Assembly (NCBI GenBank): GCA_019915015.1
Contig: JAHBBC010000010.1
Span: 1,240,001 to 1,304,000, forward strand
Reading direction: 5' to 3'
Length of the DNA stretch: 64,000 nucleotides
Origin: Auriscalpium vulgare
Taxonomy: Eukaryota > Basidiomycota > Agaricomycetes > Russulales > Auriscalpiaceae
Part shown: positions 25,701 to 49,952 of the stretch, piece after piece
How the letters are laid out: every line of letters starts with the position of its first letter
How positions within the stretch are numbered: position 1 is the stretch's first letter
The notes under the pieces: generated by a model
The model's database searches: none
Told to the model about the DNA's origin: nothing
Seen by the model: the letters and a program-made list of their open reading frames with translations, nothing else
Made by a program: the position numbers and the translations under genes

Positions 25701-26306
25701 TATGGACACACGGCGCTTCACATTGCGTGCGCCGTGTTCGAGGACTGTTACGGCGATCGCATCTTGCGATTCCTGTTAGAGGAAGGCGCAGATGTTGCGG
25801 CAGCCGACGATAGGGGACGTACGGCGCTTCATGTCGCGGCGCAAAATCACCGGAGCATCATCCCTCTCATGGTACTTCGAGACTATAAATTGGATTTACA
25901 CGCTACGGACAATAATGGACAGACAGCACTGCATGTCGCGACGAGCATCCCTCTCAAGGTACTTCTAGACCACGGATCAGATATCCACGCTACGGACAAC
26001 AATGGGCAGACAGCACTGCATGTCGCGGTTTTGCGGCCTGATCAAAGGTTCAGGAAGATCACTAAACTCTTGCGCCGGGGAGCAGACGTGGAAGCCAGGG
26101 ATCATAGCGGCCGCACACCGCTGCTCACATTGTGCTTCGGGCATAGCGTGTTTGGGTCTGGCTGTGCGCGCAAGTTGTTCAAGTACGGCGCCTCGGCTTC
26201 CGTGGTTGACGCCGCCGGCAAGACTGCACTGCACCTCTTGGCGGAGTCATCGTGCTGGTGGGGGTTGATTTCAGTCTTGGATGTACTGCTCGCGCACGGA
26301 GCGGAC
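22786..26306 (+). pseudogene. NACHT-ankyrin STAND protein, copy 1, 5' part (split by a 23.6-kb insertion)
   Basis: STAND NTPases of fungi act in non-self recognition and programmed cell death. Order: N-terminal helical domain (MSSPTGQLPSPSPKAISNPI, then LRCVQRISRVIAPLEKFFSA), a segment GLAGVYGDILLTCTTIRRIY, a highly charged coiled coil (23560-23770), and the NACHT domain. The NACHT domain has Walker A GKAGAGKTVL (spliced around 24050) and Walker B VFLIVDALDEF. A winged-helix-like part follows (FLYVRLQILHLRRQG), then about six ankyrin repeats (GQTALHVA, GRTALHVAAQN, AGKTALHLLA). One extra G in a run of seven at about 23087 breaks the frame before the first intron; copy 3 has six. Otherwise the copy is open until HGAD at 26306, where the element begins. 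The rest lies at 49946-50393. Confidence 0.88.
26300..26306 (+). repeat. 7-bp target duplication AGCGGAC, left
   Basis: It is identical to 49946-49952. The ankyrin coding frame HGAD ends here and resumes at the other copy. Confidence 0.8.
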
Positions 26307-26560
26307 TGTCGTGCACGGGACGACCGAGGTTCGTTTTTGATGCGGCCGGCTGGACTCGGCTATCACCGGCCATCGGCTCCGCTGGTCCGCTTCCGGGCAC
26401 GGCACCTGCAAGCCTTCCTATACTCTCCTCCTCTAATTACTATGTAATATAATACTTAAGTAGCCTCAGAAAAGACATTACGACGTTTGAAGTCCTCTGG
26501 AAAGTCACCGGCTTCCGGGTGGCGGTGCCGCAGTGCCGACGAACCATCACGTGCTCTCGA
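26307..26560 (+). repeat. left inverted terminus of the giant element
   Basis: It is about 250 nt and imperfect. After the 67-nt identical core it shares the ggtccgcttccgggcacgg block, a tatgtaatataatac block and an accatcacgtgct block with the right end. Confidence 0.85.
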
Positions 26561-27227
26561 GTGGCAGCCGCGGCCCGCGGTCCGGTCGTCCCTCCGAACA
26601 ACGACGTTCTTGTTCTCGTCCCACTACCATCCCATAGGCACGTCCACACCCATGCACAAGAAGCCTCATTGTGCATGCATACGGTCCATAACTGCGCCTT
26701 GGCTGTCCTCCGCAACTTCAGCACAGTCCAGTGGCCCAGAACGAGCATTTGCAACACGCCCGTGCATTGCGCCTCTCTCACCGCGACGCGGCCTGTCGTG
26801 ACGCTATGCAGCTGCAACATGTGGTGTTGTGGTAAGCTGGGTACGTTGGAATGCTGAAGCAATGGGTGGGGGGTGGGCGTGCGAGCCGAGGCTGGCCAAT
26901 GGAGGCGCGCAGAGCTTGAAGGCCCGACATGTCAGTAGCACGTACGAGCTGTAGATCTTACACACAACAATCAGGACATGCATTGATATTTTGCAGCCCT
27001 GTCCGCTACTCTGTCAAAGTGTGGATCTTTTTTTGCAAAGCAGCGGGTGCGACACTGCTTATCATCACGTTGCAGCACGTTGCACGGCTCAATTCTTCAG
27101 GCTAGCCGTTGACGTCGCTTGAAGAGCTTCTCAATGCGCATATAACATCCAGCTTTTCCTCGCCGTCACATCGCCCTCCTGCCCAGCTACAACTGCTCCT
27201 TACTGGCGTGCAGGACTCAGAGCCGCC
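26561..27227. other. subterminal region upstream of the integrase gene
   Basis: This should contain the integrase promoter. No further coding sequence was recognised. Confidence 0.35.
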
Positions 27228-28848
27228 ATGCCTAATCCGTCGGGCAAGAATGGTCATGGAGCAAAGGACTGTGCGTGTTTCCCATATATGTTTCCGCTCC
27301 GTGTCTTCAGCTCGTCGTATCCATTCAGATCCTCCCGACGAGCAGCTTCGCGTGTCACTTCTTGAATACCAACGTCTGGGCTTGACACGAGACCAGAAGG
27401 TGGCAAGGCTTATAAAAGACCATGATCTGTCAATCAAGTACGTTCAGCGCCATCATGCTCCTAGATTGAAATCTTAACCCATTGCTACAATAGAAGGACG
27501 TCTTTGAACATCTTAGAGAAACGCCTTGACATTCCGTCTGTGCGAAAGCCTCTCCCTGTTGAGGTTTCAAGGCAGGCTGTCCTTGATGAAGTCGACAAGG
27601 GTGGAGCATTCGGAATGGCAGCAAATGGACCCCGATTCATCAAGGATAGGCTGAAGGATCAGGGAATTCCAATTGCCCGGTGCGTGTGCGTGTCATAAAG
27701 TGTGGAGCATGTTACTCATCTCAACGGATTAGAGATACAGTGCGCAAAATCATGCTTGATCACTATCCTGACGGGTTTGCTGCACGCAATCCTGCCAAGC
27801 GTCCCACTGTTGCGCGCACACCTCTCACTTCTGCTGGGCCATTTCGTGAGATTTCAGGAGATGGACATGAAAAATTGGCTGAGCAGGCACTCCGTATGGG
27901 AGGAATCGGTTTGCCGATCTATGGAATCAAGGACAAATTTTCGTCGTATGTACTGCTGTTGCAGGTTGTACCTGACAGCCGCTCTCAAGAAGCACTTGGA
28001 CACCTCTATCTTGATCTGGTTGAGCAGTATAAGGGTTTGTGTCACACCCCTTGAGCTGCTTGGTTTTGCTTGTGTCTCATCTTCCTTCTCCTTTAGGCAT
28101 TCCAGTTCAATTCACAACAGACAAAGGCTCAGAGGTTGGAGTTATGTATGCAATACAGTCAGCTTTAAGGCAAGTGGTATTTAAGGCTTATCTATATGCT
28201 CTATATTCACAATCTGAATGATAGGAGTGCATATGCTCCTGGCCTTGATCCTGATGTTCATCCTGAGCATGTCTTTCTTAAGAGTGTGCACAACACTGTG
28301 ATAGAAGGATTCTGGAGGTTCTTGAAAGAGAAACTTGGTCTCAGTTTAAAGGATCACATTCTTCTTGGACATAGAGAGCACTTGTTTGTACCTCACCTTC
28401 CATGGCATCCGTTGAGTCTCTCAGCTTCCCCATGTCTATCAATCATTGCTAACTCTGTTCTAGGGTTTTATTCAACTGGATATTTCCTCCTCTTGTCCAA
28501 GTCCAACTGGATGAGTTCAAAACATATTGGAACCAACATCGCATCCGGAAACAGAGGGAGAAAGAAATGCCTTCAGGACATATCCCTGCGCATGTTTTCA
28601 ATGAGCCTGGATCATGGGCTGGTATCAATTGTCTTATTCCTGTTCCGCCTGAGGGTATCGCCCAGATGCGAGACATCATTACGGAGGATTATGGTCCTAG
28701 AGGAAAGTATCTGGATTGGGTAACACCAGAATTTGATGCTCTGGCTTCACAGGCATATAAACAAATTGGCTCACCAAATCTTACATTAGATACTGCCTGG
28801 GATATTTTTAGCAGAATGTCCACAGTTCTTAGGGATTATTACCAGTAG
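27228..28848 (+). CDS. DDE integrase-type transposase (rve/integrase-core family)
   Basis: It would cut and join the element's ends. The ATG (GCCGCCATGCC) starts MPNPSGKNGHGAKDYPPDEQ. Introns at 27271-27328, 27438-27493, about 27680-27731 and further downstream restore one frame. The N-terminus is a helix-turn-helix-like region (LGLTRDQKVARLIKDHDLSI, LEKRLDIPSVRKP). The catalytic triad is visible as SGDGHEKL (Asp), VQFTTDKGSEVG (Asp) and HNTVIEGFWRFL (Glu). The C-terminus runs FNWIFPPLVQVQLDEFKTYW to SRMSTVLRDYYQ. One intron near 28168 seems to start AAG/GCAAGT and end GATAG, a GC..AG intron. No stops are left. The gene is AT-rich after its first exons. I associate this family with repeated genes in agaricomycetes but cannot name the transposon superfamily. 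Confidence 0.85.
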
Positions 28849-28991
28849 TATTCATATGCCTTCATCTGTCAGACTGCCTTGACTATCTTGTGATTGGGTT
28901 TTGAATTCAAATGCCTCAAAGTTATATTGCAAGTCAGAATTGATGACATTGAATATTGATAGTACCACAGCTTTACTATCTTGTAAGTAAT

Positions 28992-30600
28992 TCACCTAGC
29001 TTTGGTAGTAGCTAATGCATGAGTTATTACATTTGCCCTAGACCATTGGCCATTTTGAGCATGGCGCTTGGCATGGGTTTTCCAGCTGGCAGGCTTCTCA
29101 ACCCCTAGTCTGCCAAGAGAGGTTCCATGATAATCCCTTGCAGCATTCCATATCCAATGTGCATGTTCTTCCAGCTGAACAATCAACTTGAAATCAGCAT
29201 AGATGAAATTGCTTTCATCATCTTTGATCTATCAAAGTGTTATTAAAGGACTAATATTGTCTAGGAAGTTTCAAATTGCATACCTTGTCAGAGCGGGATG
29301 ACACCCAACCCATTGTTACAGTATCATCATTGTCTAAGTGCATGGGAGCTGCATATGCAAATGATGCGAAGGAACTAGTGTCTGGATAGCCAAATCTGTT
29401 GATCAGATTTGCCTTTCTTGCAACAGCCTGAAAATGTTCTCATCCAGTTGACAACAATATTTATTATATCACTGACCATTTGCTCCTCTGCAAAGTGGGG
29501 CATGAAGCCCTCTAAAATGCAATAGTTATGACCTTGAACAACTAGTTGACAAGAATGTGAATTCTTGTTAGATGTCAGTAAAGGTAAACTTACTATCTTT
29601 ATTTGCCTCCATCTGCAATCGAAACGATGTTTGCTCTTTGAGCTTGGCCTTTGTACTTTCTCTTGCATTTACCCCAGGCTCTGCAACATTGAGGAGAGGT
29701 GTGTCTCTTATACCTGCTGTACTGTGTTTGCCAAGCCCACTCTTCACCATTGAGCCCGTGTCATTCATGCCGCGCTTGAGCTTCTCACGAGTCCTAGATC
29801 AGCCATAATAAATGATTAGTCTCATGGTCTGTTATATTGACCATTAAGACTCACTGAATAAATTCAACCTCAGCCCTAGCAGCCATGGCAACATGCTTCT
29901 GATCAATTTCTGAAGCCACAGCTGTGAGCTGGTCTGCATGATATATTATAGCCCCAAACTGAAATAAAGCATGAGCAAGAAAGCACTCTGAAATTCATAA
30001 AGCTTACAATATCCTTTTCCTCTATTTTTCCTCCTTGCAGGCCAGCACTGTCATAGAGAATAAGAGATACCATGCCAGCATCTTTTGGAGGCTTCACAAT
30101 TTTCTGCCATCCTGGGTCTTCAGGTACAACCACAGTCTCCTCCTTTGTGATAGCCTTTGTTTGAAGCCCCTTTTCAAATATATCAAGGCTTTCAACAATA
30201 TGTTTCCTCTTTAAGTTATCCAAATCTTTGTCTGGTACTCTTAGATGAAATGAATCAGTCTGAAATGTCACTTAGAAAGTTCTACCCATACCTTTTGCAA
30301 GGAACAAATATTGCATTCTGATATGCTTGTTCTCCAAGCACATGATATAAATGCAACTGCCTAGCTTGTGCTCTTGAGTACTCTGCAGCTTCAATAAGCT
30401 CCTTTGATATATCCTTGATTTGTGTATATGCTTGAGTCTTAATTGCTTGTCTCTTGATGTGTATCATATTGAGAAACATAGAGTGTATCTGCCTTTGACT
30501 AGTCTTTAAAAGGCCATTGCAGAGCATGGCAGGACGATCCCTTCGGCACATTTCACAGAATATCTCCCAGCCTATTTTTCCATCTTGTGTGCAATTCATA
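28992..30600 (-). CDS. probable 2OG-Fe(II) dioxygenase-like protein (TET/JBP-like), transposon-borne
   Basis: At least six exons join in frame. The C-terminal part reads IVQGHNYCILEGFMPHFAEE, then QMAVARKANLINRFGYPD, AAPMHLDNDDTVTMGWVSS, a 55-nt intron, IKDDESNFIYADFKLIVQLE, EHAHWIWNAARDYHGTSLGR and VITHALATTKAR. HxD (His-Leu-Asp in PMHLDNDD) and a distal His (DYHGTS) have the spacing of the iron-binding triad in 2OG-Fe(II) oxygenases, including fungal TET/JBP-like enzymes that oxidise methylated bases. The N-terminal half (ELIEAAEYSRAQARQLHLYH, FHLRVPDKDLDNLKRKH) is not recognised. The true start is unclear because the 5' end runs into a 42-bp tandem repeat and the first long frame has no ATG there. 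The family call is inference. Confidence 0.5.
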
Positions 30601-30792
30601 TGTAATTCCAGGGTGAAATTCAATTAATCACTGTAATTCATATGTAATTCCATGGTGAAATTCAATTAATCACTGTAATTCATATGTAATTCCATGGTGA
30701 AATTCAATTAATCACTGTAATTCATATGTAATTCCAGGGTGAAATTCAATTAATCACTATAATTCATATGTAATTCAAAGGTGAAATTCAAT
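30593..30792 (+). repeat. 42-bp tandem repeat, nearly five copies
   Basis: Units begin aattcatatgtaattcca at 30593, 30635, 30677 and 30719, then degrade. It lies between the dioxygenase-like gene and the Helitron-type gene. Confidence 0.9.
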
Positions 30793-30929
30793 CAAAGTCA
30801 TTCCACTCTGCCTCAATATCACATTTCCATGGATTGGACAACTTTTCAAACAGCTCTTACCTTCTCTCACAGAACTTCCAGCTGGAAATCAAGCAACAGA
30901 GAAATCTAGATGAGAAACCCAAGGTAACA

Positions 30930-31050
30930 TTAAGGGGAAATCAAGAGATAATCAGGGGGATACTCAGGGGAAATTCAAAAGATAATCAGGGGGAAATTCA
31001 GGGGAAATTCAAAAGATATTCGGGGGGATAATCAGGGGAAATTAATGGGA
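30930..31050 (+). repeat. short purine-rich repeat
   Basis: It is an irregular repeat of gataatcaggggg and aggggaaattcaaaa units just 3' of the Helitron-type gene. Confidence 0.75.
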
Positions 31051-31137
31051 AAGCCAAAGGCATCTAGACACAGATTAATTGGCAATCCACCTGCTATTGG
31101 AATAGTGTCAGTGATATAACAAATCAATTCTTTTGCT

Positions 31138-34100
31138 TTATATGTACAATGCAAGTGCTGCTGTGCGGCCTTCTGCTTCATATACATTGATGCTTTCCCT
31201 TGGTCCCTCATGGTTGAACTTGGTTTTTGTTGTCATACCATCATGATACCAAGTTTGATCTTGAAGGTCAAATACACGTGCAGTAAAATGAAACCCACCA
31301 TGATATATAATACCTGCCAAACGGTAGACACGTGTTGCATGGTCTTCAACAATATGTATGCTTTTACTGAGTATAACATTGTGCTTTGAAATTGATAACA
31401 TCAATACAGGAGGTAGCTCACCAATAAACTTAGTGACTATTGTCAAATGATCTCTACAAATAGAACACAGGTCATCTGATTGTCTATAATGTGTATTCAT
31501 AAATTCATTGGTATTGGTGGCACCAGAGTAACAGGGATCCCATAAGGCAGCAGGTTGAACATGCTGTTTGTCAAGACGATGACATCTTACACAACTTGTT
31601 TCAATGACCACTGAGCCTTTGTCATTTTTAAATAACTCCATACACATACTCCTAATATCTGTGCCATCTACAGCATTATTGGGAAATTCACGAGGGTCCA
31701 TGTTCCGTATACTCGTGCGCACAAGGTCACGTTCTGCCTCTGCTGTCCTACCTTTCACAGGATGTGACCACAAATCATTCATAAGATCTAAATGTTGATT
31801 TTTTCCCAGTATGTGTGTATTCCAGGTACTGCTTTCTACTGCAAAAACATTTCTAAGAATTGTGAAAGTACTATCATAAGCACAGCTAAGAGTCTTTTTA
31901 TCCCATCTTAATCCTTTGATTTTTACTTTATGTACTGTGGCTGCAGAGGCAGTTGCAGTCTTCCTACGTTTTGAAGGCTTGTCTGGTGCAACAGTTGTAT
32001 CTTTGACAACTCCAGTGTCAACTGCCTCTTGGATATGCTTATTTTGTGTACTCACTTTTGGTGTGGTAGTAATAGAGACAGTGTTTGCTCTGTCACTAAG
32101 AGGTAGTTTTATCTTTGCATGTGCAGGAGGCTTTTTCAGCAAAGTCCATTCCAAGTCTGGTAGTACTGTCACCTTGTCCATGGGCTCTTTGGCAGACCAG
32201 GATATGGCATTATGCATGTGCTTAGGTGTGAGCGGTTTGCCAGAGTTGCTCCTATATTCCTGATACTGTCTTATGAGAGCAGTGCGAGTTTTAGCATTTA
32301 TACCTTCAGGAAGTTTACTCATATATCTCAGAGTGGTAATATGGTCTAGAATCTCTAATTCACGAAAGTTTTGTCGATCCCATCCAGATAACCCTCCCTG
32401 AATCTTGTGTGGGAAGAAGCCTTGTACAATTAGTGTTCCTTGTAAAGATGATCCTCGTGACAGTGCAGTGTAGTATGACTGATGAGTGCGACAGTTGTGC
32501 AAATCTACTACATTGTATTTGCGAGTTCTACCTTGGGAAGCAAAGTCTGTCATTGCAAAATTGGGAATGACTGGGACTTGCTCTCGACTTATACGCCAAG
32601 GTGTGTCATCAGGCATCTCACAGACCAGATCTTGTTTCTGTTGAGACACAGGTACTACATTTTGGCTCAAGCTAGGTAACTGAATATCTTGGGCAGGATT
32701 ACTGAGATGTACAAAGACAGTCTCCAGTGCTTGCTTGTCATGTGCAATGTCTTTTGCACGCCACCCTACAACAGTACCTTCTGCACCATTTGTTACACCA
32801 AGCTCAGTGGCTTCATTCTTCTTGATCATTATGTGCATGCCTTTACATAAAGACAGTATTCCAGGATGGTGATCTGTTACAGCATGAGGAAGATTCCACA
32901 GTATTTGTTGTGGGACAAGAGCAATGGCATTTGATGTGCGCAAAGGATCAACAATGTCTGCATTCTTCCGCTTGTGACCTGGCTTTTTCTCTGAGTCCAT
33001 ATTTGTCCGCCATTTGTCAATAGAATAGAAATGTGTGAGATGCTGGTGATGATCTTCTGCAAACTGACGACTATTCATTTCATTGAGACGATCACGATGT
33101 GAATTCAGACCTGTAATGACTGATACATATCTAAACTCAGGATCCCAGATATGAGGTTGATCTTCACCACGTCCAGCAATCCGTGTGCGAAGCAATGCAA
33201 TATCTGCATCAGTGCATGCACGATATCTCATATTTTCAAGAGCTGTGCGAAACTTGGCATCTTCAGGAGTCTGAGTCTTCTGACGCATATTTTGACGAAG
33301 TATAACAACATGTGTTGACTGATGCCAGGTAGCTTTGCCCATAATACTTTTCTGCACCTTGTGACTATTGGTTGTATGTAAAACAGCGTCTGGAGTCCTT
33401 GAGTATAATGCAGGACTTGTAGAAGGTGGGGGGAGCTGAGCAAAATCACCTGCAAAGACCATGTTTTTACCTCCATATGCAGTATCATGAACCTGCATTG
33501 CAAGACACATCTGAGCACTTATATTGTACAAGCTTTCACAATCTACCATTGAGATCTCATCCAAGAACACATATTGAACATGCTTAATACGCTCATGGAC
33601 TTCATTCAAAGCCATCCAACTTTGTTGTGTTCCAAAACCATTGATACCTAGCACTGAATGATAGGTTGAGCCTGAAACTAAAGCAGCTGCAGCACCTGTT
33701 GGTGCAAGAACTAGAAACTTGTATTCTTGCTTCATTTCCTTGAAAAAATGCTTAAGTGCCTTTATGACTTGAGACTTGCCTGTGCCTCCCATACCACCCA
33801 AATACATTTTAAGCTGTTCAGCAGCAGGGTCAAGGACATGGTTTGACACAATACGAAATGCGCGCTTCTGTTCAGTATTCAAAGTAAAAAGTTGGGCAGT
33901 CTTAGTTACAATTTCTCGCTGCTCTGCTGTTCCTGCTATATGAGCCTCTGTTAGATATGCAAGGTCTACCAATCTCACAGTGTTTTCCAAGTCCTCCTTT
34001 TGCCCTTGTGCTGAGTTGGTGGCACTTGCTGCAGATGCCTGTTCAGCACGTCCATCTATTACCTTTTGCTTCTCTAAAGTTAGTACTGTTTTCCAGTGTG

Positions 34101-37100
34101 CAGCTGACTTTACAGACCCATCAAACAGAGGCTCAGTATCAATATCCATTGGAATGCTGCCCTTGCGTTCAAGCCAACCAGTCTCATGCATCACCTTTTC
34201 AATCTGAGTCATCTGGGTCAATCGATTCAAAGTCTTTTTCCCAATCACCTGCCACTGACTTTCCAAGGCCTGTGCTAATTCTGTAAGATCTATTCCATTA
34301 GTATCACCGTCATCTTCAACAGTCTGATCCAAATGTTCAAAGATCTGATTAAATATCTTACCTGTCATATCTCCCTCTGCATTACCTGCTTTGCGCTTAG
34401 CAGCATAATCATCTCGAGCATCATTGCATTCATATTTGATCTGCATGAAGTCCATGATGCGCCTTTGGTTGTCAGAAAATCCATGACTCTCAAATGTGCT
34501 TTGCCATGTATCTCCACTATCTTTCAAGTCTTGTGGGACACGCCAAGGTTTGAATAGAGTCAGCATAGTCGAACAGTACTCCTCAATATTGCCTTGATCG
34601 TGTCTTGGAAGAGATCCACCCAAGAAATTTGGCACTTTTGATTTATCTTCTTTGCACACCCTAACTTCATGTGTGCCATGTTGGGGATGAGTAGGGATAA
34701 ATTGATAAGACTGTGTCTGACGGGGTTTCTTATTCTGTTTGGAACCATTTGGAGTGTAATTTGAGTCAGGGTCTTCTTCTGCAAGATGAAGTCCTTCCAC
34801 ATCTGAGTCTGTGGTGTAGACAGATGCCTTGTCATCATTGTCTTCAAATTCTGAGTCAGATTCTGTATCTGCATCCCTTTTGTCTGCTTTGACTTTACCA
34901 GGTTTCGCTCTAGATTTACGTTTGAGTGTTTTAGTACATGTTCGAATCCAGTCATAGACATTCATATGTATCAACTCTTTTGGCCGACATGTATAGTCCA
35001 TAATAGCACTTTGCCCAACTATGAATCCTTTGATATTCTTGACAACTACTGTAGCATCTGGTGCATTGTCAGAGTCGTCATTTGGGGACCAAAAGCGTAA
35101 GACCTCATTGATATAGTTCTTCCAATAGAGCTTGGCAAACAAATGCATTGTATAGTGGTCAGGATGTCCTAATAAATATAAGGATGCCATTGGCCCTCCA
35201 ATCTCTAGACGCACATTCATATTGTTGACAATTTGCACCATGACTTTCTTTGCTTTCTGTAAACTAGTCAAGCTCTCATCTTCAAGTGTAGCATTCCTTT
35301 CAAATACAGTGCGAACGGCATCAAACATGACATGTGTTTTCAGAGGTGTTTTTGTAATGTAGTCAGTAATATATGCAATAATTGACTTTATTGCTGTGCC
35401 TGATAACAAGCTTGTAACATCTGAGTTGCACCGAAGTACATAAGTGAGAACATACGAAAATGTATTGAGCCATGCTTCATTTTGGCGCATATTGATGCTG
35501 CCTGTCTCAGAATCAACTGTGGTTGTAGGATTTGTATCTCGCGGAAATCTGGACTTACATGTTTCATGTTTTGGATCAGTGCACCCAGTGTGATGTTTGT
35601 GCTTGTTGAGACGAAAGAGGAGGTCATCAACAGTAGATTCAAATTCTCTTTGCCACTGAATATAGGGCTCACAATTCATACAAGTGTCATTACTCTCGTC
35701 TTTGTGATGTTTACACAATTTGGGTGGACATTTAGGCAACACTAGAGATGGCTTAATATAATCATGTTCCTTTTCAGCTTCCTTAAGTGCTTCTTCAACA
35801 TGATCCATAGATCCTGTCAAGAATTCACCTGCATGTGCACTCTCAAGATATGCTATCATCTCCCGCTGGAAGTCTGAATTCCGATCAAGAAGTTTATTAC
35901 GTATCTCTTGGGGAGTAAGAACACCTTTGATCCATAGTAACATATGCAAATGTAATGTTAGACGCCCTTGTTGCTCGACAGTGCCATAATAGCCCGCAGT
36001 GTCACCATAAAGACCTGAATGCTTTGAGCCAACACCCAAAACATGTTTGATGAACAAGTCAACCATGAGTTTGAAGAACTTGGCACCTGCAACAGGGTTA
36101 TTTGCTATCAATCGTACCCTCTCATCCTGCTCATAAAATGTAGGAAATATAGCTGATTGCTGGCCAGCATAGTATAGTGCAATAGGGTGATTAACATCAG
36201 ATGGTGCAAAGGTAATAAACCAAGATGGGGCTCCAAGGTAAGAAATCAAAGACCATATCTCACTACGCATATTCTTCTTGCTTGCCTTTGACCCTGGTAC
36301 ACCTGCAGCAACAAAATCAAGATCATTTAATATCTGATAACATGCACTCTCAGCATCAGTGGATGCCTTTACATGTTCACCTTTTGCCAGACGTTCAATC
36401 AGCTCTGTAAGAACACCAACGTCAACCTTTGCAAGTCGATCTGCGATGCGACCAAAATTGGCTTGTTTTGCCATAAGGTATCCTCCCAATGCACTGCTCT
36501 TGACTTGCTGATGATTTAAAGCAACTAGAGGAAACATTGGTTCTAATTGGAAACGTTTGTCATGGTATAAAAGCAAGTGGCGCAACCGTCTTTTATCGCT
36601 CATACCTTTGATACCATTATCATTTCCGACACCACCAAGGCCATATGGGAACAACCAAGGGAAGATCTGTGGATAAAGCTGAGGATTGTCATAGGTAGAC
36701 ATAGGGGTATTGGACTGCCCAATTCCAAGAGCCTTACCTCCATTAATAAGATGCTGCATAGCTTGTGCCTTCAGCTGCTCTGTAGACATCCTTTCAATTT
36801 CCTTTCCGGTCAGGGCATGTACTGTGAACGGACAAGCACCATCTGTAGTAGCCACATCATCATCTATATTAACAGATTTATTTTCACCTGTTCCTCCATC
36901 TGCGGATAACTTATACTCTGTCACAATAGGTACACCTTCTTCCTCATACTCAGCAAGATTGGTATAGGAAATTTCAAGGTCTCGATAATCAATATGATTG
37001 CATTTGAGCCACTCGAGAGCAGATGCAACTTTATTTCTCCGCACAAGTAGAGGGGTCCGTCTAAGGTCTTTGTCTGTTGGTTTTGTCTGACCAATATATA

Positions 37101-37995: not shown

Positions 37996-38503
37996 TTGAG
38001 CTTCAATAATGTAAGTATTTAATTCTGCTCCAGTCCACGTAACGACTTTACGACCACCGCCTACCTGGGATACTACATGGTGCTCCGAGCGGCCGCAATC
38101 ACTAGATGCTCACCCGGATATATACCATATAGCTAAAGTGAAAACAGTGACCGGAAGTGTCAAGGCAATTTGCATTGCATTCGCAGATGTATCTCTCAAA
38201 TGTGCAACTATTTGTCTATGATGTAGCGGGCATAATTTATAAGTTGCTAACACTTTGCACATCATTTTATATATCGTCACTTTGGACATCACTTTATTTA
38301 TTGTCGCTTTCAACATCACTTCATTTATTGTCGCTTTCGACATCCATTTGGATATTGTCACTTTGGACGATGCCGCTTTGGGCAAGGTTGTCCCTTTGGA
38401 CGATGCCACTTTGGGCATACAATGATATGCAGCGTAAGCACCTGGCATGCCGTGTTGTCATTTAGCCGTGGAAGGAATATAATGAGAATGAGCCAAGACG
38501 TAC
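37996..38503. other. sequence upstream of the Helitron-type gene, with degenerate 24-bp repeats
   Basis: Between about 38255 and 38420 there are imperfect repeats of gtcactttggacatc / gtcgctttcgacatc, and then gacgatgcc.ctttgggca. A minus-strand frame runs through them (PKVASSKGTTLPKAASSKVT), but this looks like a by-product of the repeat. Composition changes from AT-rich to GC-rich at about 38030-38100. Confidence 0.6.
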
Positions 38504-38880
38504 CACGAGATGTGTCAAGTTGTCCGGCGCAAGCGTGATGTTCGTCACTGCGGCCGCGGCGAAGAGTGCACCAGACCCGACGATGGCGAGCATGGACACC
38601 ATATAGCGGATCCCGACCTGCCCCCACGACGAGATGGACCGGACTTTGCAGCCCATCCACCGAAGCCCGCCCGTACGTGCGGCAGTCACGGAGAAGTTGA
38701 CCGCAAGGTTGAGCACCCAACGCACAGGCCCGATGGCGCTGAGTGTGACGATGTAGATGTGCGCGCTCGGCCAGCGGACGAGAACGTTTGCGGTGTACGC
38801 GAGGCCTAGATATGCCCGTCAGTTGTTATCTAGAAGGCGATGGTAGAGTACGGACCTATGCGGGCGAGCTCGACGATGAT
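38504..38880 (-). pseudogene. captured fragment of a multi-pass membrane-protein gene
   Basis: Two exons keep their splice sites: 38880-38856 (IIVELARIG), an intron, and 38803-38504 (LAYTANVLVRWPSAHIYIVT, then GPVRWVLNLAVNFSVTAART, WGQVGIRYMVSMLAIVGSGA, LFAAAAVTNITLAPDNLTHL). An acceptor (cttacag) lies before the first exon and a donor (gtacgt) after the second, but no other exons exist nearby. At least three hydrophobic helices are seen. GC-rich coding with introns retained and no gene ends is what genomic capture by a Helitron would leave. The parent gene is not recognised. Confidence 0.65.
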
Positions 38881-41800
38881 CTGTAAGATCATTAGCAGAG
38901 ACGCAGATGTAGGCCGACAATAGACCTACTGGTGCAACACAGATCTTCCTGTTGCAGTGCCATACAATGTACAGAAGCAAAATCTAGTGATTCTGTTACT
39001 GGCTGCAACAACAGGAATGGAGCTAGATCTCGTACCAGGACGATATCTCGCAAGAAAACCTTTGTGTGTGCAATTGTTGGGAACGCGCGTTATGCATAAG
39101 AAGTTGGATCACATACTGTTGTGACAGTCTTGGAAACTGCAATATGGTATAGAGCCATGTGGACTGAGGACATTGTGTCCGGTGGCAGGGATGCTTGTGC
39201 GCACGCGTTGGGGGCTGAAAGTGACTGATTTGCGTCGCTGGCACAGTCGCCAATGCCTACAGCACAGGTGCCTGATTAGATCAGCCAACGTCCGCCTCGC
39301 CCGGAGACAGTGAAGACCTTGTGCCGACAATGTTCACGCATTGATTGGATTACTATAGTATATTGTACACGCTATACATATATTGTGGACACACAGAATA
39401 GGCTACATAGTGTGCTACGCGACAGTGCTACACAACAGGAAACGGCGGCGGCGGCACATGCGACGGTGGCGGCGTCGGCGGCACATGCGACGGTGGCGGC
39501 GTCAGCGCGGCGGCGCCGTGGGAGCGTGGGTTGTGAATGTGTTGATGAGGAGGGAGGCAGTAGCGTCAGCAGGGTGCGAGCGGGGCGGCGGCGGCGGCAA
39601 GAGTGAGGTGGGTGAGGTCGGCGTGCGCGGCATTGTCGATCAAAGGCCGGGGACCGCGTAGCGAGGGCGATGATTCTGCTTGCGGGGTGAGCGGACAGGG
39701 GGATGAGGGCGCTGGACAGTGGCGGGATGGCATGGGGGGTGTCCGCGTGTGACGTGGCACTGTGTGTGCAGACGTCGTGGTATGCGGGGGCGAGGGACAG
39801 CGGTGGTTGGCGTGCGAGAACGGTGAGGGGGTGTCTCCACGCAAGGATGGGTCGTGTCGGCGGGGGAGCTGGCGGCTGCGCGCAAGAACGGCTGGCGACG
39901 GGCGACGGTAGTTGGCGGCGGGTGACCGACCGCAGGCGAGAGCATGGGATAGCTAATGGGTTGCATTAACGAGGATGTGTGATGCCGGACAACTACTCAC
40001 CAATTGAGCCTCCAGGGCTACTCCCCGTGTTGCCACACTCCCATCTCCGACTTCTTCGCGACTCGCGCGTGCGCCGCGGAGCGCAGTGACGTGGCGCAAC
40101 GCATGTTGATGCGATGGCACTTGTGGAGCGGGTGCACGGGTCCTTGACGCGCTGGCACTTGTTCATCGAGTGCGTGGGTGCTTGGGTGCCGGAACCAAAC
40201 GTAGGCTGGATGTGGGTGGGAGGGACAGGGAGGAACGTGAAGAGGTGGTGTGGGGGGCCTGAGGGACGTGGCTGGAGGGCGCGCAGGCGACGCGCGTCGA
40301 GTGTGACATGTGACTGACGCATGCGACCGTCACAGTCACTTGCTGCCCGCAGACCCGATACTTAGTCGATTTCGTGCAGGTCGGGGCATCTACGGCTAAC
40401 ATTTCGGATGGTCCCCGTTCAACTCATAGAACCCTAAAAACACTTATCATTCATTGAAACCATCCCGAAAGGCTATCGTTGCCAGTGCCAGTGAAAGGGA
40501 GCTGAACCGGAGGCACTGCTTACCGCACAAGCACTCGTGGACTTTGATGATTGAGCAGCCCCCAGCTTTAGCTCAGCCTCAGCTTTTTGATTGCTTACAA
40601 GCATACTTACACAAGTAGCAGATACTCAGATATATATATACAAATACTAACAGGGTACGTGACGACGACGGCGGTGGCGGCGCGATCGCAAACCGACTAT
40701 CTTGGTGAGCCGCCTCTACAGCGCCGTCCCTTCAGGCATGTGGTGCCATTTGTCCAGCGCATGTCTTGAGCGTAACCCAGGCGCGACCGTTCCACCTGCG
40801 CGCGTCCGTGGGTGCGTCTGATAAGTTGGGGCCTCAACGGCTCAACCTGCGCTGGTGCTGAAGGTGCGTCGGTATCCAGCGCGCTTGGTGTGGCGGGACA
40901 ACGTCCAGCGAAGCTGCGAGCGCGGTGCCCGCCTTGTGTCCGGCGATGTCGTGGAGCCCAGCTACCATGATCGTCCGGATGTCGCGCACATGCGAGAGCA
41001 TGCGCGGTGCGTCCAGATAATCCGACAGGACGCATTCATCCTAGAAGGTGAGCTAGGTAAGTCAAAGAGATAAGGAAACCGGTCGACAAGTACGTACACG
41101 CCACGCAGCGCGCTCGGTCAGTGGCTGGCAGCCCGCAGGCCAGGGGCGCGACATCGGCCATGCCCGCTCTTCTCAGCGCAGCCACGGCCTGCGGGAAAGA
41201 ATATTTGGCGATGCTCGCGATCTGGACGAGCGCGGGGGCGGGAGGTTGCTTGGGGGCACAGACAGAGTGTGCGCAGCGCCAAGACGCGCAGTTGGTACGC
41301 CGGATGATGACGACACAATTGGCGCGGAGGCGTGGGGCGTGAGGCATGGGCATGGGCGCGGCGGTGCTGCATGGAGGCAACGACGGTCGGGACGGGGACG
41401 GGACGGAGAAGGAGACATGGACGAAGAGGCATAATGTAAGTACACACCTGGTTGCGCGAGCTCCGGGACTGCCGTCCCGCCGTACTACCTCTTCCACCCC
41501 TTTTCCCTCTCTTCCTCCAAGCGGACGCGGACGTTGACCTGCGCGTGTACGGTGTGGCACGTCTGCCGTGCTGAAGGACCGGTTGGGGTATGCGGCGACG
41601 CGTAGAGCGCGCCTTGCATGTCTTCGTCTTTGAGAGAGGCCTGCGCAGCCAGGAGGCGCCAGGTTTGACACCTTGCAAGGCAGCGCAGGCCTGTATGAGC
41701 AATGCGCACAGCGCCCGGCGCGCGTCGATGGCCACTGTTGATTGGGGTGCCCGGCTTGCGGAGGGAGACAGCGTGGTAGCCGACAGGCGCATGGCAATTA

Positions 41801-42464
41801 CGTAATGCGCGCTGGGTGCTAACGAGAATCCTGCAGCGTCGGCATTGTCGAATGAATGACGAGGGAGTTGCGTGGCTCACCTGTATCCTATCCTAAGCAC
41901 ACCGACGCCGTTTCGGACGACTGCGCTCGACTCGCAGCGGCGGCAGGTCGCCAGGCCAACGCCAGGCCGGTGGCGTGACCGGGCCGGCGCCCGCGGGGTG
42001 TGGTGTCCGGCGCGGGCTTTTCTTGAGGGTGTTTGCAATGGAGTGCGGTCGATAGGGCGCGTGGTGTCTGCAATGGTGTCGAGACTGCGGGTTGGGTGAT
42101 GGCGAGGTGGGGAGTGGGAACGAGAATGGCCATGACGCGACCCAACACTGTTGGGTCGCACCTGTGGCTGAAGTCGCCTAGAATGGTAGATAAGATCAGA
42201 TAATAGATCGGATCTGATCGAAATAACGGAACAGACCGGGTGCGAGCATTCTGAGCGTTTCACGAATCGGCTGAAAATGTCCCATTAGTAAACGATTCGA
42301 CTTCGTACCTCAGGGAATCGTAAAAGGTTTTCAAAGCAGCTGAGTCCATGACTTGAAGCTAGGAACAAGATGCATTAGACCATGTTTTATGTCCCGGTGA
42401 AAATGTTTACTGAGGTGTAAAGTGGTCCAACTTTGTAGCCCTGAAAAATTACATGCATTTAGCT
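38881..42464. other. 3.6 kb of mostly GC-rich non-coding DNA inside the giant element
   Basis: No conserved protein was recognised on either strand. Long frames here are antisense pairs caused by GC bias. A 27-bp tandem repeat lies at 39450-39505. From about 42290 the composition turns AT-rich ahead of the next gene. Confidence 0.5.
39450..39505 (+). repeat. 27-bp tandem repeat, two copies
   Basis: The unit ggcggcacatgcgacggtgg, extended by cggcgtc, is repeated with a period of 27 (gcacatg at 39454 and 39481). Confidence 0.85.
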
Positions 42465-43341
42465 TTAAGCCTCAGATAGAGTAGTCAGAAAATTCACAGC
42501 TGAATATATTTGCTGATCTGCTTCAATATGGTTCTTCTGCCTGTTACAAAGGCGAACCAGAGATGGGAAGAAGCATTCATGATAAAATGAATAAGGGGTG
42601 ATGAGAGATATTTTGGCTCTTTCAACAGCTTCAAGATCTACTGCTGGCCACTCAGAAGCTATAGCTTGGAGGATCTTTTGAACCCCTTTTTTGTACTCCC
42701 CAGGAACCTCAGGACTTTTTTGAGTCTGCTTGGTGTTGAAGAAGGTCCTCTCAAAGGTAGGCTTAATGAGAGGGTCACCAGGAAGCTTGAATTTATTGTC
42801 CAGGGTCCTCTCCAAGACTTGCAAAGCAAATATTAGCAAAAGGCCAAGATTACATTCAAAATCAATTCTGACCTGAGTGAACCTCTGTCTCAGAAAAGTC
42901 TTCAATAGGCAACATATTCTCCTCATCTAAGAATCCAATGCTGTTTAGTCAGAATATCAAGCAGTGGAAGATACAACTGACTGCTAGATGTGTCCCCTAC
43001 TTGTATTAAGTACTGTCATGATCACTGGTGATGGAAAGCAGATCAGACCACATACCAGCCACCTCTGGTCCCTGCTGATCATAGGCCAGGAGAGCTTCAT
43101 TGTGCTCAAGATCGGGGAGAGATGGATGGTTCCAGAGAGGTGTTGCATCAGAGATGTCACCAGCCTCTTCATCTATTCCACCCGCCTCCTCCAGCCCTGT
43201 TACATCACCATTTGGGTTTGAAGCCATGTCCTGAAGAGAGAAAGAGCGCAAAGCTCGATCTAAGATCTCGTGGGCCGTGTCCAAGCTGGCTGTGCGAGCA
43301 CGTTTCATGGCAGTCGAGTCTGAGGAGGTGTGTGACACCAT
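42465..43341 (-). CDS. unknown AT-rich gene inside the giant element
   Basis: Three exons join in frame. Exon 1 from ATG 43341 encodes MVSHTSSDSTAMKRARTASL and an acidic stretch to GPEVAG. An intron starting gtatgtgg and ending ggattcttag leads to DEENMLPIEDFSETEVHS. A second intron (gtcaga...ttgcaag) leads to VLERTLDNKFKLPGDPLIKP, FERTFFNTKQTQKSPEVPGE and on to NFLTTLSEA. The protein is about 240 aa and I recognise no domain. The first third is acidic and disordered, the rest helical. Base composition resembles the Helitron-type block, so it may have come with it, although 4 kb of GC-rich DNA separates them. An in-frame ATG at MKRARTA is an alternative start. Confidence 0.6.
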
Positions 43342-43790
43342 CTGGTCACATCGTGATGTAACAGTCGTGGGTGTACGCGTGTCTTCTCACCACCACCTCT
43401 CATGCTCGTTTGCTGTTCGAATTCGTCTCAAGACGTATCATTCCCATCCTGACACCGTATCACTTGTACCTAAGTGCCAACTTGGGGCGGCCCAACGGAT
43501 TCGACACTTCGGTGGCGACCAGGGTGCTTCCCAGACTGGGTGTCAGTTATGTGTTATGCCGTCCTCGGAGTTTTCGAGAGCATTCTTGTGTGCTTCCCTA
43601 TATTATCTGCCACCTTGTCCTGCTCATAACCATGCTGCTCCCTCCTCAACCACGGAACATCCTCGATTGGCCTGCCTGACAGGTGAGTTTTATCTACAGT
43701 TTCTACGAGCTATCTCTATATTAACGGTGCTGCCTGTGATCAGCCGTACAAGCTGTCGCATTCGTAGAGCCTCAACAGCACCACCGCGCT

Positions 43791-44010
43791 CGACGACATG
43801 CCGCGTACCACCGCCACGTCACCGTCTGCGCTCAACAGCGCCAGCGCATCGCGACGTGCTCGACGACGTGCCGCGTACCACCGCCACGTCACCGTCTGCG
43901 CTCAACAGCGCCAGCGCATCGCGACGTGCTCGACGACGTGCCGCGTACCACCGCCACGTCACCGCGCTGCGCTCAACAGCGCCAGCGCATCAACATGCGC
44001 TCGACGGCGT
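43791..44010 (+). repeat. 70-bp tandem repeat, about three copies
   Basis: ccgcgtaccaccgccacgtc recurs at 43801, 43871 and 43941. The first two units are almost identical; the third diverges. Confidence 0.95.
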
Positions 44011-44400
44011 GCCGCGCGCCGGCGCCACGTCATTGCGCCCTGCCGCGCGTGCTCAAGGCGATGAGAAGGAGAAGGAGGAGGAAGGAGAGAGGAGAGGAGG
44101 AGGAGGCTGAGGAGACGAGCCCAAGGGGCTCGAGGGCCGAGGCCGGTGAGCAGGCGTCCCGCGGTAAGTTAGCTCCCCTTACCCATCCCCGCTCGCTCGT
44201 CCGCCCTCGCCGCCCCACCACCCTACCGCGCCCCCATGCCCGACACACGCGTGCAGGCTCTCCCATCACCCGTGCCCCGAGCCCGTGCATTGTGCTGAGC
44301 ACAATGTCGCGTCGCTCGCCGGCACTAGCTCGAGCCGCCAGGCCCGTGCGCCCGTCCGCTAGCGTGGACGCACAGCGGCGAGTCACGACGTGATGCCTCG

Positions 44401-44449
44401 CGCACCCCGTCGCTGCGCACCCCGTCGCTGCGCACCCCGTCGCTGCGCA
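44401..44449 (+). repeat. 15-bp tandem repeat, three copies
   Basis: cgcaccccgtcgctg starts at 44401, 44416 and 44431. Confidence 0.95.
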
Positions 44450-45067
44450 GAGCCCGGCCCCTCGTCTTCCCCGTCACAGGCCCCTGCCGCCGTGGCCACC
44501 GCGCCGCCCTCTGCACCACCGCGTCCCCATGCGTCGCCCCGACACCGGCCGGTGTACCTCCGCAGCAGCATTGCCGCGCTGACGCCGCCCCAACGCCGGT
44601 GCCAGTCCCCATGCAGTCCGCGACCGCACACCACAACCCCGCGCCGCCGTTTGCACGCGTGCCCACGCCCACGGCACCCACTCGACGTACACACTGCCCC
44701 ACCGCCGCCGGGTGCGCCCCCTTCGACACCTCGTGTGCGCCGTGGCACGGTGCCCGCGCCCTTCAAACCCGTGCGCCCGAGCCCCTCAAGCCTGTGACCG
44801 CGCCGACACACCCCGTGTCCACGCGCACCTACCCTCGCGCGCCGTCGTGCTGCCGGCCCCCGCGCTGCTACCCTGCACTGCCCGCAGCGTGCATCCCGCA
44901 GTCGCGCACGCGCACACGCTCGCCCATCACCCGTGCCCCCGAGACCGTGCATCGTGCTGGGCACGATGTCGCGTTGCTCGCCGGCACTGGCTCGAGCCAA
45001 CGCGCCCGTGCGCCCGCCCCAGCGCCAGCCAGCGCACTTGGCGTAAACGCACAGCGGTGTGCGCCGT

Positions 45068-46017
45068 CATCCACCGCCTCCGTGCACGCCTGGGCCGCGC
45101 GTCCTCGCCCAGTGCGTCGAGCTCGAGGAGCGCCTCGACACCTTGCATGCGCCATCGCTCGCCGGCCAGCCCAATGTCGTCGCGCCCGGACGTCCAACGC
45201 GCTGCCGCCGCACCATCCACCATCCAGCCGCTTTCGCCTCAAGCTCCGGCGTCGCCGACGAGCTCAACGAGGGTGCAGCGCATGTGGCTGTGCCCGCGAT
45301 CCAGCAGCTCGGGGAACTCCCGCGCGGTGGGCGCGGCTGCGGCGACGTCCAGCTGCCTGCGCAAGTCGCGCACGAGCGTCCCGCAACATGTCGAATGTCG
45401 TGCGCGGGCGGGACGAGTTGCGCACACAACACGCACGGACACGGCCGCAGACGCCACACAGCCCCTGTACGACGGGCTGCGCAACATTGCCGGGCACGCA
45501 CGCTGGATGGGCGCATAGCAAGACGATCAACGTACCTTGCTGGACACCTCGCAGGCCGTGCAGCGCGACGCTCAAGGCTGGACGAGGCGTGGTGCCTCTG
45601 CGCGCATCTCAAACACCTCGACGCTCCCGCCGACGCACGCTCAAGTAAATTGCCGCCGGGCAATCGACATGCCGCCAGCGCTGTGCGAGCGCGCTGCGCG
45701 AATGTACGTTCCTTTGCGACTCTGTCTTTGATTTCTTAGACTTACCTACTCTCATCTTCTAGTGTACTTCGCCATGCGTGCGCCTCGCCCAGGCGATGCT
45801 CTGGACGCGCCATCTCGCCTGCAAGATTGACTGAACGCCGCCGTGCATGCTGCATCACCTGCTCACCGTCAAGACAACATCACTGGACGCGCAGCGGCCG
45901 TCAACGCCGCGCCGGCAGCGACGCTAACGCCCGCATGCGAGCGCCGTCATCCACCGCCTCCGTGCACGTCTGGGCAGCGCGTCCTCGCCCAGCACGTCGA
46001 GCTCGAGGAGCGCGTGC
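45068..46017 (+). repeat. dispersed duplicate of a 70-nt segment
   Basis: Segments 45068-45137 and 45949-46017 are near-identical and in the same orientation, about 880 bp apart. Confidence 0.85.
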
Positions 46018-46564
46018 GCCTCCTCCAGGCCCTCGACGCCGACGTCAACACCGACATGCGCGCACGCTACAGAGAGCTCGCGGACACCGTGCGCAAGTGG
46101 GATGAAGTGGGATGACGAGAACGAGCTCCTCTACAGCGCGTTCGGCGCCAAGGTGCGTGCAGCGGTTTTGTCTGGCCTGCGCCCGCACGCTGACGGGGTG
46201 CGATGCGATTGCAGTTCGGCATGCACTGCATTTTGCTGCTCAGCTGACGAGCACGCTCGAAGAGCCCGCCATCAGCGACCCCTCGCAGTGCTCATTGCTG
46301 CTGCGCCTCCAGGCATGTCTCCCCGCGCGCAGTCGCGGTGTGGGTAGTCGGTGTTCATGCGCTGAGCAGATCACAAGCAAAATGACCATTGAATGATTAA
46401 TGTAATATATAAAGAACGCTCCTGCTGGCCTGATAACCAACGTGAGGCAGCCGGAGGATTAAGTACATAGCAATGTATGAAGTAATATGATGAGCTGGAA
46501 TACCAGAGATCTAGAGAATGAATGTGTTTGAATGAGTGATGGGCAGGACACATTGTGCATGCAT

Positions 46565-49111
46565 TTAGGACTCCTCTGCGTCATCGTCATCGACGTCGGA
46601 GTCAGGGACCTGTATGCGTTCCATAGGCTGGGCCACAGAGCCGCCCAAGCTATCAAAGTCAAGCTTCTTGCAAATACTGTTGCAGACATGGTCTCGGAGA
46701 TATGTATTGATGCCTTCCTGTCCAAAGTCGCCCACTCCAGATTGTCTTTCCGACCAAATGTCAGCCTCCATTCACAGTTTCAACAAGGTTATGGACATAC
46801 CCTTCCTTTGTATGTGTCATGTTGTCGAAAAGAACAAAACCATCGACGCCGCTACCGCCGGGACCATTCGGAATCTGACACTGTGTCCCTGATAATTCAT
46901 TAAGATGCATGCAGACCGGGTACTTCATCACAAAACGTACCCTGGAGATCTGCAAGGACAAGTTCCTTGTTGCTGGCCAAGTAGACAAAGTGGGAGAAGG
47001 CGCGGATGGTTGTGAACAGAAGCCCGGTCTGAGTCGCCGTGTGGTTGAGCGTGCCACTGATGCGGGTCACCGATGTCGGGCGTTGCTTTTCAATGAGCCA
47101 GCTCCATCCTTCATCCATGTTAGGCTCACTCTGCCCCGCCCGGGAAGCACGTGATGGCATTGTCTGCTGTTCCTTCCCAATCCATGCATCCGCAAATTTG
47201 ATATCTACATGGCTGTCAGCTTTCTGCATGAGTTGTATGTGGGAGCTAGACTTACTCCGATCAACATGAACATGATTGGCCTTTGCGTGCTCGTAGAAAT
47301 TGCATAGGAACCACTGGCCGAGGACAAGACACCGAAGCTCAGCTTCTAAGTTGCTCCTGTTTTCTTCCACCGAAACAGCTTCACCATCAGCTGTAAGGCG
47401 ATAGAATTTCTTGGCGACATAGATTACGCCGTCCGATGCAGAAAGCTATAGTTAATAATACTGTTAGCAGATGGAAATCAAACGTACAAAGCAAATGCTC
47501 ACAATATATGCCTTCTTCATCGCACCTTCTGCGAAGTGCATATCACGAATATAACCTTTGACCGTGATGTCGCGGTCTTCAAGTTGCGTCTCGCCGTCCA
47601 CCTGGGATGCAACACAATCAAGGCGTTCCAGGGTCACAACACTGCGCGTGTGAACAGTCGCAGGGCCTTGGGCCAAGGTGCGTGAGCTGAACAGAGAGGC
47701 GAATGCAGATCCTACGATAGACTCAGTGGCCCGAAATGAACAGATTTCAGAGAAATAAGACTTACCTGAGCTAGCAGCTCGGCGTTGACGCTTGTAATCT
47801 GCAATCTCTGACTTGGATAGCAGTTGCTCGCTGACTCCGCGCTTTCGCTTCATGCCATTGAGTGCTGACTGGATCTCATTTGATCCACGTATGCGTTCGT
47901 CGATGTCGAGATCATCCCCTTGTTCACCGCGAGTACGCAGTTCATACTAGTGGCATTAATTACTTCATCAGTTAAAGTCAATTACGCTCAGAGAATATAA
48001 CACGTACTGCTTTAACATCCACATATACGTCAAATACCAGCAATGCCTTCTTCATGAGGTGTTTGTAGTTCGAGGGCACTTTGGCGAGGTAGATAGGGTA
48101 CCGGCTAGGCTCGGAATAGTGCGCATGGAACTCGCCTACGGTAATCGTCGATGTGTTTGGTTCAAAAGTGCGATTATCAGTGAACCGGAATGACACTTCT
48201 TCCCTGAAATACAATAAACACAATGATGTAAATGGATGGGCATGACGACTCACGGCATTAGCGGCTCCTCGTGGGGTTTCCCGTCGTGAGGGTGTCGCTG
48301 CCACTCAATATTCAAGTGTTGAACGATACTCGTCTTGATGTCTGCTCGCTCTCAGAAAGTGATTTGTTAAAAGAATAGATGTGACGCACCGGGCAAATGT
48401 TTTGACGCCACCCACGACTGCGCACCCCCTCCATACTCCGGCTTTGTCGTCTTTGGACAGCTGCTCAACCGGACCTGCATGGGTACATGAAAGTCAGAGA
48501 CCAAAGATCTGATGAAATAGGCCTGTGCTCACCTGCCATCCTACAACGATTTGTGGTTCTCCTGGAGCGCCATCACCCCGCTCATGACAAATGAGACTTT
48601 CACTGGTGATCTTGGTGGTAGCATTGCCGTTGCCAAAGCGATTCTTGTAGTCCTTTGCACGGACGCCCAAGGTGTGAGGCACTGGTGCAACCGTCCTGGA
48701 CGGCGTCGGCACTGCGGCTTGAACGTGGTATCAGTCAGACACTGACAATGTGAGCCAACGGTAAACATACCTGCTGAGCTTGTAGTATCTGCACTCTCGT
48801 GATTCCCAGTGACGCCTTGCAAGCACGACTGACACGCATGAGGCATATCGGGGAAAGGCCGAGTCATGTTACGGCGCGTAACCCGCACAATGAACACTGC
48901 GGCCAGCTCTATGGAATAGCCATGAGTTAGATGGATATCATGAGGGACGTATACGCACAGCAATGTCTTTGTACTCATTGGACTCGAGTGGATGAGCGGC
49001 CAGCTTCGTGCACTTCATGCATGGCCCCGTGCCTTCTCGCTGAGGAAACGACAGCCCACAGTCCTCACATTGACTGGCAGACGGGCTTGCCGAGGCGGAG
49101 GGATCTGCCAT
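46565..49111 (-). CDS. alpha-type (atypical) protein kinase
   Basis: Alpha-kinases phosphorylate Ser/Thr in helical targets and share the fold of EF2K and myosin heavy-chain kinases. About ten short introns resolve in frame. The N-terminus (MADPSASASPSASQ) carries a zinc-binding-like part, CEDCGLSFPQ...CMKC, and later CQSC. The middle has KKALLVFDVYVDVKA and a basic MKRKRGVSEQ stretch. The C-terminal kinase domain has IKFADAWIGKEQ, EGWSWLIEKQRPTSVTRISG, IRAFSHFVYLASNKELVLAD, LQGTQCQIPNGPG, VLFDNMTHTKEGQSGVGDFG and QEGINTYLRDHVCN, the usual order including the Gly-rich GVGDFG segment and final HVCN. It ends in an acidic tail. An upstream in-frame ATG at 49216 is possible. The reading is intact, so it may be functional cargo beside the right terminus. 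Confidence 0.88.
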
Positions 49112-49216
49112 CCTGGCCAATGATTCCAGGTGGAGGGGGGAAAGCGGCGCTGCTGAGTGGTGAGAGAAATGCGCACCTTTATATGGCCTTGAAGAGATCA
49201 CTAACGCCGCTGGCAT

Positions 49217-49689
49217 GATTTAACACCGAGCCTAAAGGTCCATTCATATCTAGTCAAAATATGGCAACAGATCTAACCATTGTTACACGAGGCAAGGTGC
49301 ATGCGGAGCCACGGGGACGATGTGCACAAGGCCTATCCCACTACACTCTGTGTGCCCGTCTTTAGCTAGAGGTGTCACTGCATGCCAAGTTGACAGAAAG
49401 ACCTACAGGGCATTGGCCCATAGTATTTCCCCAAGCCAATGCCAATGAACGCCGCAATCCTATGTAGGGCTCCAGCCGACGCCTGTGCTGGCGTGACGGC
49501 TCCCGTCGCCTAGATCCACGGAGTGTTTTGTCGTGCCCTGGTCGGCCAAGCAAAAAGACTCACAGGATATCCATGAAGGTCCCTCTATAGGTGGCGCGGA
49601 CGTGCATATGAGACCATAGTGTGTGAGCGAGCACTCTACGCAAAGGAACTGACGACTCTGATCGCGGCCCACCTCCGCTTAAAAGCACG
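49217..49689. other. region between the alpha-kinase and the right terminus
   Basis: It likely holds the alpha-kinase promoter. No coding sequence was recognised. Confidence 0.4.
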
Positions 49690-49945
49690 TGATGGCTCGG
49701 GCCGCGGCACCGCCACCCGGGTGCCTGCGACTATACAGGTGGCTTCAACCGTGCTCAACTTGAAGGCCCATATCATGTCTTTTCTGAGGTATTATATTAC
49801 ATAGTGACCATGGTATAGGGAGGAGGAGAGTACAGGAAGGCTTGCTGGTGCCGTGCCCGGAAGCGGACCGACGGAGCCGATGGCCGGTGATAGCCGAGTC
49901 CAGCCGGCCGCATCAAAAACGAACCTCGGTCGTCCCGTCAACCGT
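49690..49945 (-). repeat. right inverted terminus of the giant element
   Basis: It is the reverse-complement partner of 26307-26560. The 67-nt identical core is 49872-49938. Confidence 0.85.
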
Positions 49946-49952
49946 AGCGGAC
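49946..49952 (+). repeat. 7-bp target duplication AGCGGAC, right
   Basis: It is identical to 26300-26306 and begins the resumed ankyrin coding sequence (GCG GAC CCG). Confidence 0.8.

Follow-up and report, generated by a model that had tools for sequence, protein, structure and literature searches.

An IS3EU-like DNA transposon with an alpha-kinase gene and a third gene most likely broke an ankyrin-repeat gene in Auriscalpium vulgare

An ankyrin-repeat gene of Auriscalpium vulgare was most likely broken by an IS3EU/GingerRoot-type DNA transposon that was moved by its own DDE transposase and carries an alpha-kinase gene and a middle gene as parts of the element; we place the probability of this reading at about 0.88. 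The element, bounded by terminal inverted repeats (TIRs), occupies positions 26307 to 49946 of the window, as we call the whole 64,000-nucleotide stretch analyzed (C10:1240001-1304000, from a 51.6-Mb genome in 96 contigs), and these limits include a nested Helitron. Its assignment as an IS3EU-like variant is based on termini, target site duplication (TSD), layout and family matches.

The left TIR (26307-26381, plus strand) consists of TGTCGTGC followed by 67 nucleotides identical with the opposite end, and the right TIR (49872-49946, minus strand) of TACGGTTG followed by the same 67 nucleotides. The identical stretch covers positions 9-75 of each end, and the outermost 8 nucleotides show five differences. 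Weaker similarity extends over 241-255 nucleotides (78% identity over 241), in agreement with an earlier note on this DNA that had described 67 identical nucleotides and similarity over about 250. Judged by its length, the match between the ends would lie far above chance. The same note had read a 7-bp flank, AGCGGAC, on both sides. The duplication is in fact the 6-bp GCGGAC (26301-26306 on the left and 49947-49952 on the right), the seventh base being the element's own last A, which matches by chance.

The search for further copies with both termini, which the note had proposed, yielded ten more elements with both ends and matching TSDs. Identical flanks of 6 bp, and not of the 7 bp expected earlier, are present in all 11 paired elements examined. 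Four TSDs were checked by scripted assertion, namely GCGGAC in the window, GGCAAT on C27, GGCGGG on C28 and CCCATC on C1, and the other seven were read from the flanks: GATACT on C24, GATGTC on C14, CCCGGG on C5, GACGAA on C2, GTTCTC on C22, CATGGG on C8 and CCAACC on C33. The TSDs of C27 and C28 are written in window orientation and the remaining ones as on record; as written, all 11 begin with G or C, which amounts to a weak preference at most because the orientations are mixed. All 11 elements have one tip reading TGTCG and the opposite tip TACGG. This count omits single unpaired ends (one each on C17 and C19, at C2:2972555 and at C10:569352, and two on C26) as well as further TIR matches (three on C3, one on C23, C8:1286933 and C1:18224), and a locus on C15 (L026) showed no end at the threshold of the end scan. 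The two single TACGATTG ends on C26 (C26:307182 and C26:401298; L027 and L028) share the same 14-bp outer flank; they lie in opposite orientation 94 kb apart and are possibly a duplicated relic.

The native size of 23.6 kb given earlier had to be revised. Two full-size copies, C27:155568-167370 and C28:453875-465707, measure 11,803 and 11,833 bp, and a diverged relative at C1:70307-82338, which is 86% identical overall, measures 12,032 bp. The window copy has 11.8 kb more (30499-42323, minus strand), a segment that is missing from the C27 and C28 copies, where the sequence is uninterrupted. This segment contains a RepHel ORF of 2323 aa (31138-38109, minus strand) with DUF6570, Helitron_like_N and PIF1, and its terminal 142 nucleotides have full-length matches at six genome places, the window and five others, each starting from nucleotide 1. 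The absence from C27 and C28, the Helitron ORF and the repeated terminus together identify the segment as a nested Helitron-type insertion, and the 23.6-kb figure as a composite. On the minus strand, the 3' end of the Helitron reads GACTAG, and the 5' boundary is ambiguous through an A/T run. The insertion site looks like T/T; the usual Helitron target site is A/T. With the nested insert left aside and the window halves joined by script before alignment, the window copy is 99.84% identical to C27 and 99.83% to C28, and C27 is 99.96% identical to C28, all figures referring to aligned bases with gaps ignored. These three copies are nearly identical and sit at sites with different flanks.

The host gene has an open frame upstream of the insertion (24729-26306, plus strand) and another downstream (49953-50393, plus strand), and Pfam found ankyrin repeats on the piece of it that was scanned. 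With the element and one TSD taken out, the ankyrin-repeat frame reads on as ...LLAHGAD-PQVVDSSGRRAADYAQ, confirming that excision joins HGAD in frame to the sequence expected from the uninterrupted second copy of the gene. That paralogue (approximately 56858-58483 of the window) spans the join, and the uninterrupted paralogues that do so are C10:1298325 (window 58325; 88%), C10:1416836 (89%) and C10:1329821 (74%). Empty sites, which the earlier note had advised looking for, were thus found among paralogues; allelic ones were searched for the C10 and C28 insertions, and none was found.

The DDE transposase gene (27256-28848, plus strand) has six exons (27256-27437, 27494-27679, 27733-28034, 28097-28169, 28225-28410 and 28464-28848) and encodes 437 aa. 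Its frame is open in all four full-size copies (436 aa in C1), in line with the intact integrase gene noted earlier near one end of the window element. An earlier model of 428 aa, nine residues shorter, was used for the Pfam, NCBIfam, PDB, homologue and genome searches. With this model, Pfam returned rva_4 (PF24764) at 7.6e-10 and HTH_21 below cut-off, NCBIfam returned IS481 (0.0012) and IS3 (0.036), both far below their cut-offs, and the PDB sequence search gave no meaningful match. Among the best 120 of 195 homologues, the top one, from Bondarzewia mesenterica, is 60% identical, and most others are from Mycena. An alignment with these 120 shows conservation of D166, D232 and E275 in 97-99% of the sequences that have a letter at the position (118-119 of them), and 42 residues separate D232 from E275. 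The HHCC zinc motif is absent, as residues 1-165 contain no CxxC and a single C. A genome-wide PF24764 search listed 26 exon matches elsewhere and did not list the transposases of the four elements, for which the spliced protein alone scored, modestly; that all four were missed shows the strong divergence of this subfamily. Around two other rva_4 genes, a scan for TIRs and TSDs detected no paired ends in the stretches covered.

The alpha-kinase gene (46565-49111, minus strand) has 11 exons and lies near the other end, as had been reported, but the window copy is not intact as claimed: it lacks one base that the other three copies have, and its frame is shifted. The frame is open in two of the four full-size copies, C27 and C28 (663 aa), and the C1 gene has one internal stop. 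The C27 protein matches Pfam Alpha_kinase at 2.1e-22. In the PDB it matches five sequences, each of them a myosin heavy chain kinase A (MHCK A), and the alignment to MHCK A includes the DxQG and GxGxxG...HxCNxxC segments. All four PF02816 matches of the genome, a count to be read as a lower bound, fall in the four full-size elements.

A third gene, overlooked in the first reading, is present in addition to the integrase and the alpha-kinase. This middle gene has 11 exons and encodes 616 aa in C27; it is also open in C28 and C1, and in the window the Helitron splits it into a 5' part (42324-43308, minus strand) and a 3' part (28995-30498, minus strand). Two homologues were found among approximately 8,000 scored candidates per search, one from Dentipellis fragilis (P0001, 638 aa) and one from Rhodofomes roseus (P0122, 661 aa), neither with a function name, and the full-length agreement with both supports the exon model. 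Pfam gave no family over cut-off for the middle protein, P0001 or P0122, NCBIfam gave no match for P0001, and the PDB sequence search gave no meaningful match for P0001 or for a P0122/P0001 profile. An AlphaFold model of the middle protein family, made from two sequences, reached a mean pLDDT of 30.4, too low for a usable fold prediction. An HxD (HRD, HLD) followed by YHGT is present in P0122 and in the middle protein, and the P0001 model is without the HxD stretch. Such residues could form an Fe(II)/2-oxoglutarate site, for which the motif by itself is a weak indication. The dioxygenase family PF20515 gave no match, but the controls of that search were equally without a match. Tet_JBP (PF12851) had 17 matches in the genome, 11 of them over cut-off and none inside the four elements. 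The middle gene is therefore not a recognizable TET/JBP gene, having neither a Pfam family over cut-off nor a PF12851 match in the elements, and its protein may be a very diverged TET/JBP relative. A below-cut-off Tet_JBP match was also observed at C2:2970183-2970488 (L023), approximately 2 kb from the partial IS3EU-like end at C2:2972555.

In a genome search with E up to 0.001, exons matching each of the three proteins occurred in the C10, C27, C28 and C1 elements only. When C27 is compared with C1, the transposase has a dS of 0.35 and a dN/dS of 0.21, the kinase a dS of 0.15 and a dN/dS of 0.28, and the middle gene a dS of 0.015 and a dN/dS of 0.09, this last ratio resting on only 8 changes; stop codons were skipped in the calculation. 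In 300-bp steps, a block of 2.4 kb (C27:161868-164267), which contains most of the middle gene, is 99.3-100% identical to C1, with an adjoining step at 97%. Elsewhere the identity is lower: 86-96% on the side of the kinase, 82-90% across the greater part of the transposase gene, and 53-71% for most of the spacer that separates kinase and middle gene. A near-identical block in otherwise diverged subfamilies suggests that the middle-gene block was exchanged or converted; a recent event of this kind would be the simplest reading of this one subfamily pair. In the window, this spacer (43235-46000) is GC-rich (up to 70%) with 70-bp tandem repeats, and much of the stretch matching it aligns poorly with the C1 copy.

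The integrase that the earlier note expected near one end of other copies is present in the four full-size copies and lacking in seven of the 11 elements. In a search that used the C27 element as positive control, none of these seven matched the transposase, the middle protein or the alpha-kinase; they thus look non-autonomous. Six of them measure 2.9-5.7 kb, and the seventh, on C33, measures 18.2 kb. The latter was considered as a cargo element and rejected, since it is a short element divided by a different insertion of approximately 16.7 kb. That insertion (C33:49701-66384; L019 and L020) is bounded by the inverted ends CTCAGTAAAAA/TTTTTACTGAG, shows a duplication of 7 bp, TATCACC, and contains an HSP70-like ORF and several long ORFs, as judged by eye.

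On the basis of the TSDs and the transposase family, the element's own DDE transposase would bind and pair the inverted ends, cut them and insert the element at staggered 6-bp sites, probably in a cut-and-paste mode. The element would have landed in the ankyrin-repeat gene and broken it. The Helitron inserted into the middle gene. With that insertion and the frameshifted kinase, the window copy keeps an open transposase and has lost both accessory genes. Signs of constraint on the accessory genes (kinase dN/dS of 0.28), together with their linkage to the ends, make it most likely that they serve the transposon and help it to be expressed or to transpose in the host, the kinase possibly by modifying the transposase, chromatin or host regulators.

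The reading as an IS3EU/GingerRoot-like transposon is favored by the 6-bp flanks, the near-identical copies, the DDE features, the linkage of the three genes, the dN/dS values of transposase and kinase and the agreement with a published layout. Against it stand the one TG end where TA..TA would be expected, the modest rva_4 score, a middle gene that is not recognizable as TET/JBP, the seven elements without the three genes and the two other rva_4 genes without paired ends in the scanned stretches. Two points, the TG/TA ends and the middle gene without a Pfam match over cut-off, could instead speak for giant cargo transposons that form a superfamily of their own, close to the undescribed superfamily that the earlier note had in mind. 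We consider this unlikely: the transposase type, the TSD length, one terminus and the kinase layout match IS3EU as portrayed in the published accounts (PMC12730594, PMC10045372), and of the likeness to giant cargo transposons the transposase at one end and the alpha-kinase at the other hold up and the size, at 11.8 kb, does not.

The element might also have been mobilized in trans by another rva_4 integrase encoded in the genome, with its own transposase as a passenger. The 26 rva_4 exon matches listed elsewhere and the seven elements with the same kind of ends and no match to this transposase would fit such a scheme; their lack of a transposase is, however, equally expected if this element's own enzyme mobilizes them, and that enzyme is open in four of four full-size copies, has a dN/dS of 0.21 and occurs with these ends in all four, which makes mobilization by another integrase very improbable. 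Still less credible is an assembly join or segmental duplication in place of transposition. The missing allelic empty site for C10 or C28 would be in keeping with it, but each of the four full-size copies differs from the others in its 6-bp TSD and its flanks, and removal of the element restores the host gene in frame.

Under the preferred reading of an IS3EU/GingerRoot-like transposon, every alpha-kinase gene detected in this fungal genome is tied to a single transposon family, and the middle-gene block seems to have moved between subfamilies. It thereby becomes testable why a kinase and an exchangeable third gene are retained in transposons of fungi. As a tentative idea, which we hold to be possible rather than probable, the gene position flanked by transposase and alpha-kinase in IS3EU-like elements of fungi may be an exchangeable accessory module. 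It would be filled here by an undescribed protein family of mushroom-forming fungi (with HxD and YHGT), which might be a strongly diverged Fe(II)/2-oxoglutarate dioxygenase in the role of TET/JBP, and would be swapped blockwise between subfamilies.

Starships are giant fungal transposons with accessory genes that use a tyrosine recombinase. The present element resembles them as a large fungal mobile element with accessory genes, and differs in its DDE enzyme and its size of 11.8 kb. A hAT7 assignment (7-bp TSD) is excluded by the 6-bp TSD. Ginger1 has an HHCC zinc motif ahead of the DDE core (PMC10045372) and is excluded by the lack of this motif in the transposase. According to the same account, IS3EU and GingerRoot, which are of one lineage, share a 6-bp TSD and a DDD/E transposase without an N-terminal HHCC, the first D lying 100-300 residues into the IS3EU enzyme; here, the 6-bp TSD occurs in 11 of 11 elements and the first D is D166. 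The termini there are always TA..TA in complete IS3EU families, and in GingerRoot mostly TA..TA and occasionally TG..CA (PMC10045372). The element thus shares with GingerRoot the TSD length, a TG terminus (occasional in GingerRoot) and the transposase without HHCC, and differs in combining one TA with one TG end, in all 11 elements, and in its alpha-kinase, which the description of GingerRoot in that source does not mention. In view of the TG end, we regard the element as an IS3EU-like variant and not as IS3EU in the strict sense; it is unusual in its middle gene without a Pfam family, its unequal tips (TG/TA) and the 2.4-kb shared block. Fungal IS3EU elements are described as having 6-bp TSDs, TIRs of more than 30 bp and TAYGG..CCRTA ends, and all TET+ families as carrying the TET/JBP gene between an oppositely oriented transposase and alpha-kinase (Kojima 2025, PMC12730594). 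As portrayed there, TET+ IS3EU transposons occur in rust fungi and Tuber; the named transposase homologues listed here are from mushroom-forming fungi, mostly Mycena. The window element also departs from them in its TGTCG end and in a middle gene that is not recognizable as TET/JBP. It agrees with them in its 6-bp TSD, in TIRs longer than 30 bp, in a TACGG end that fits TAYGG, and in an opposed transposase and alpha-kinase with one gene between them.
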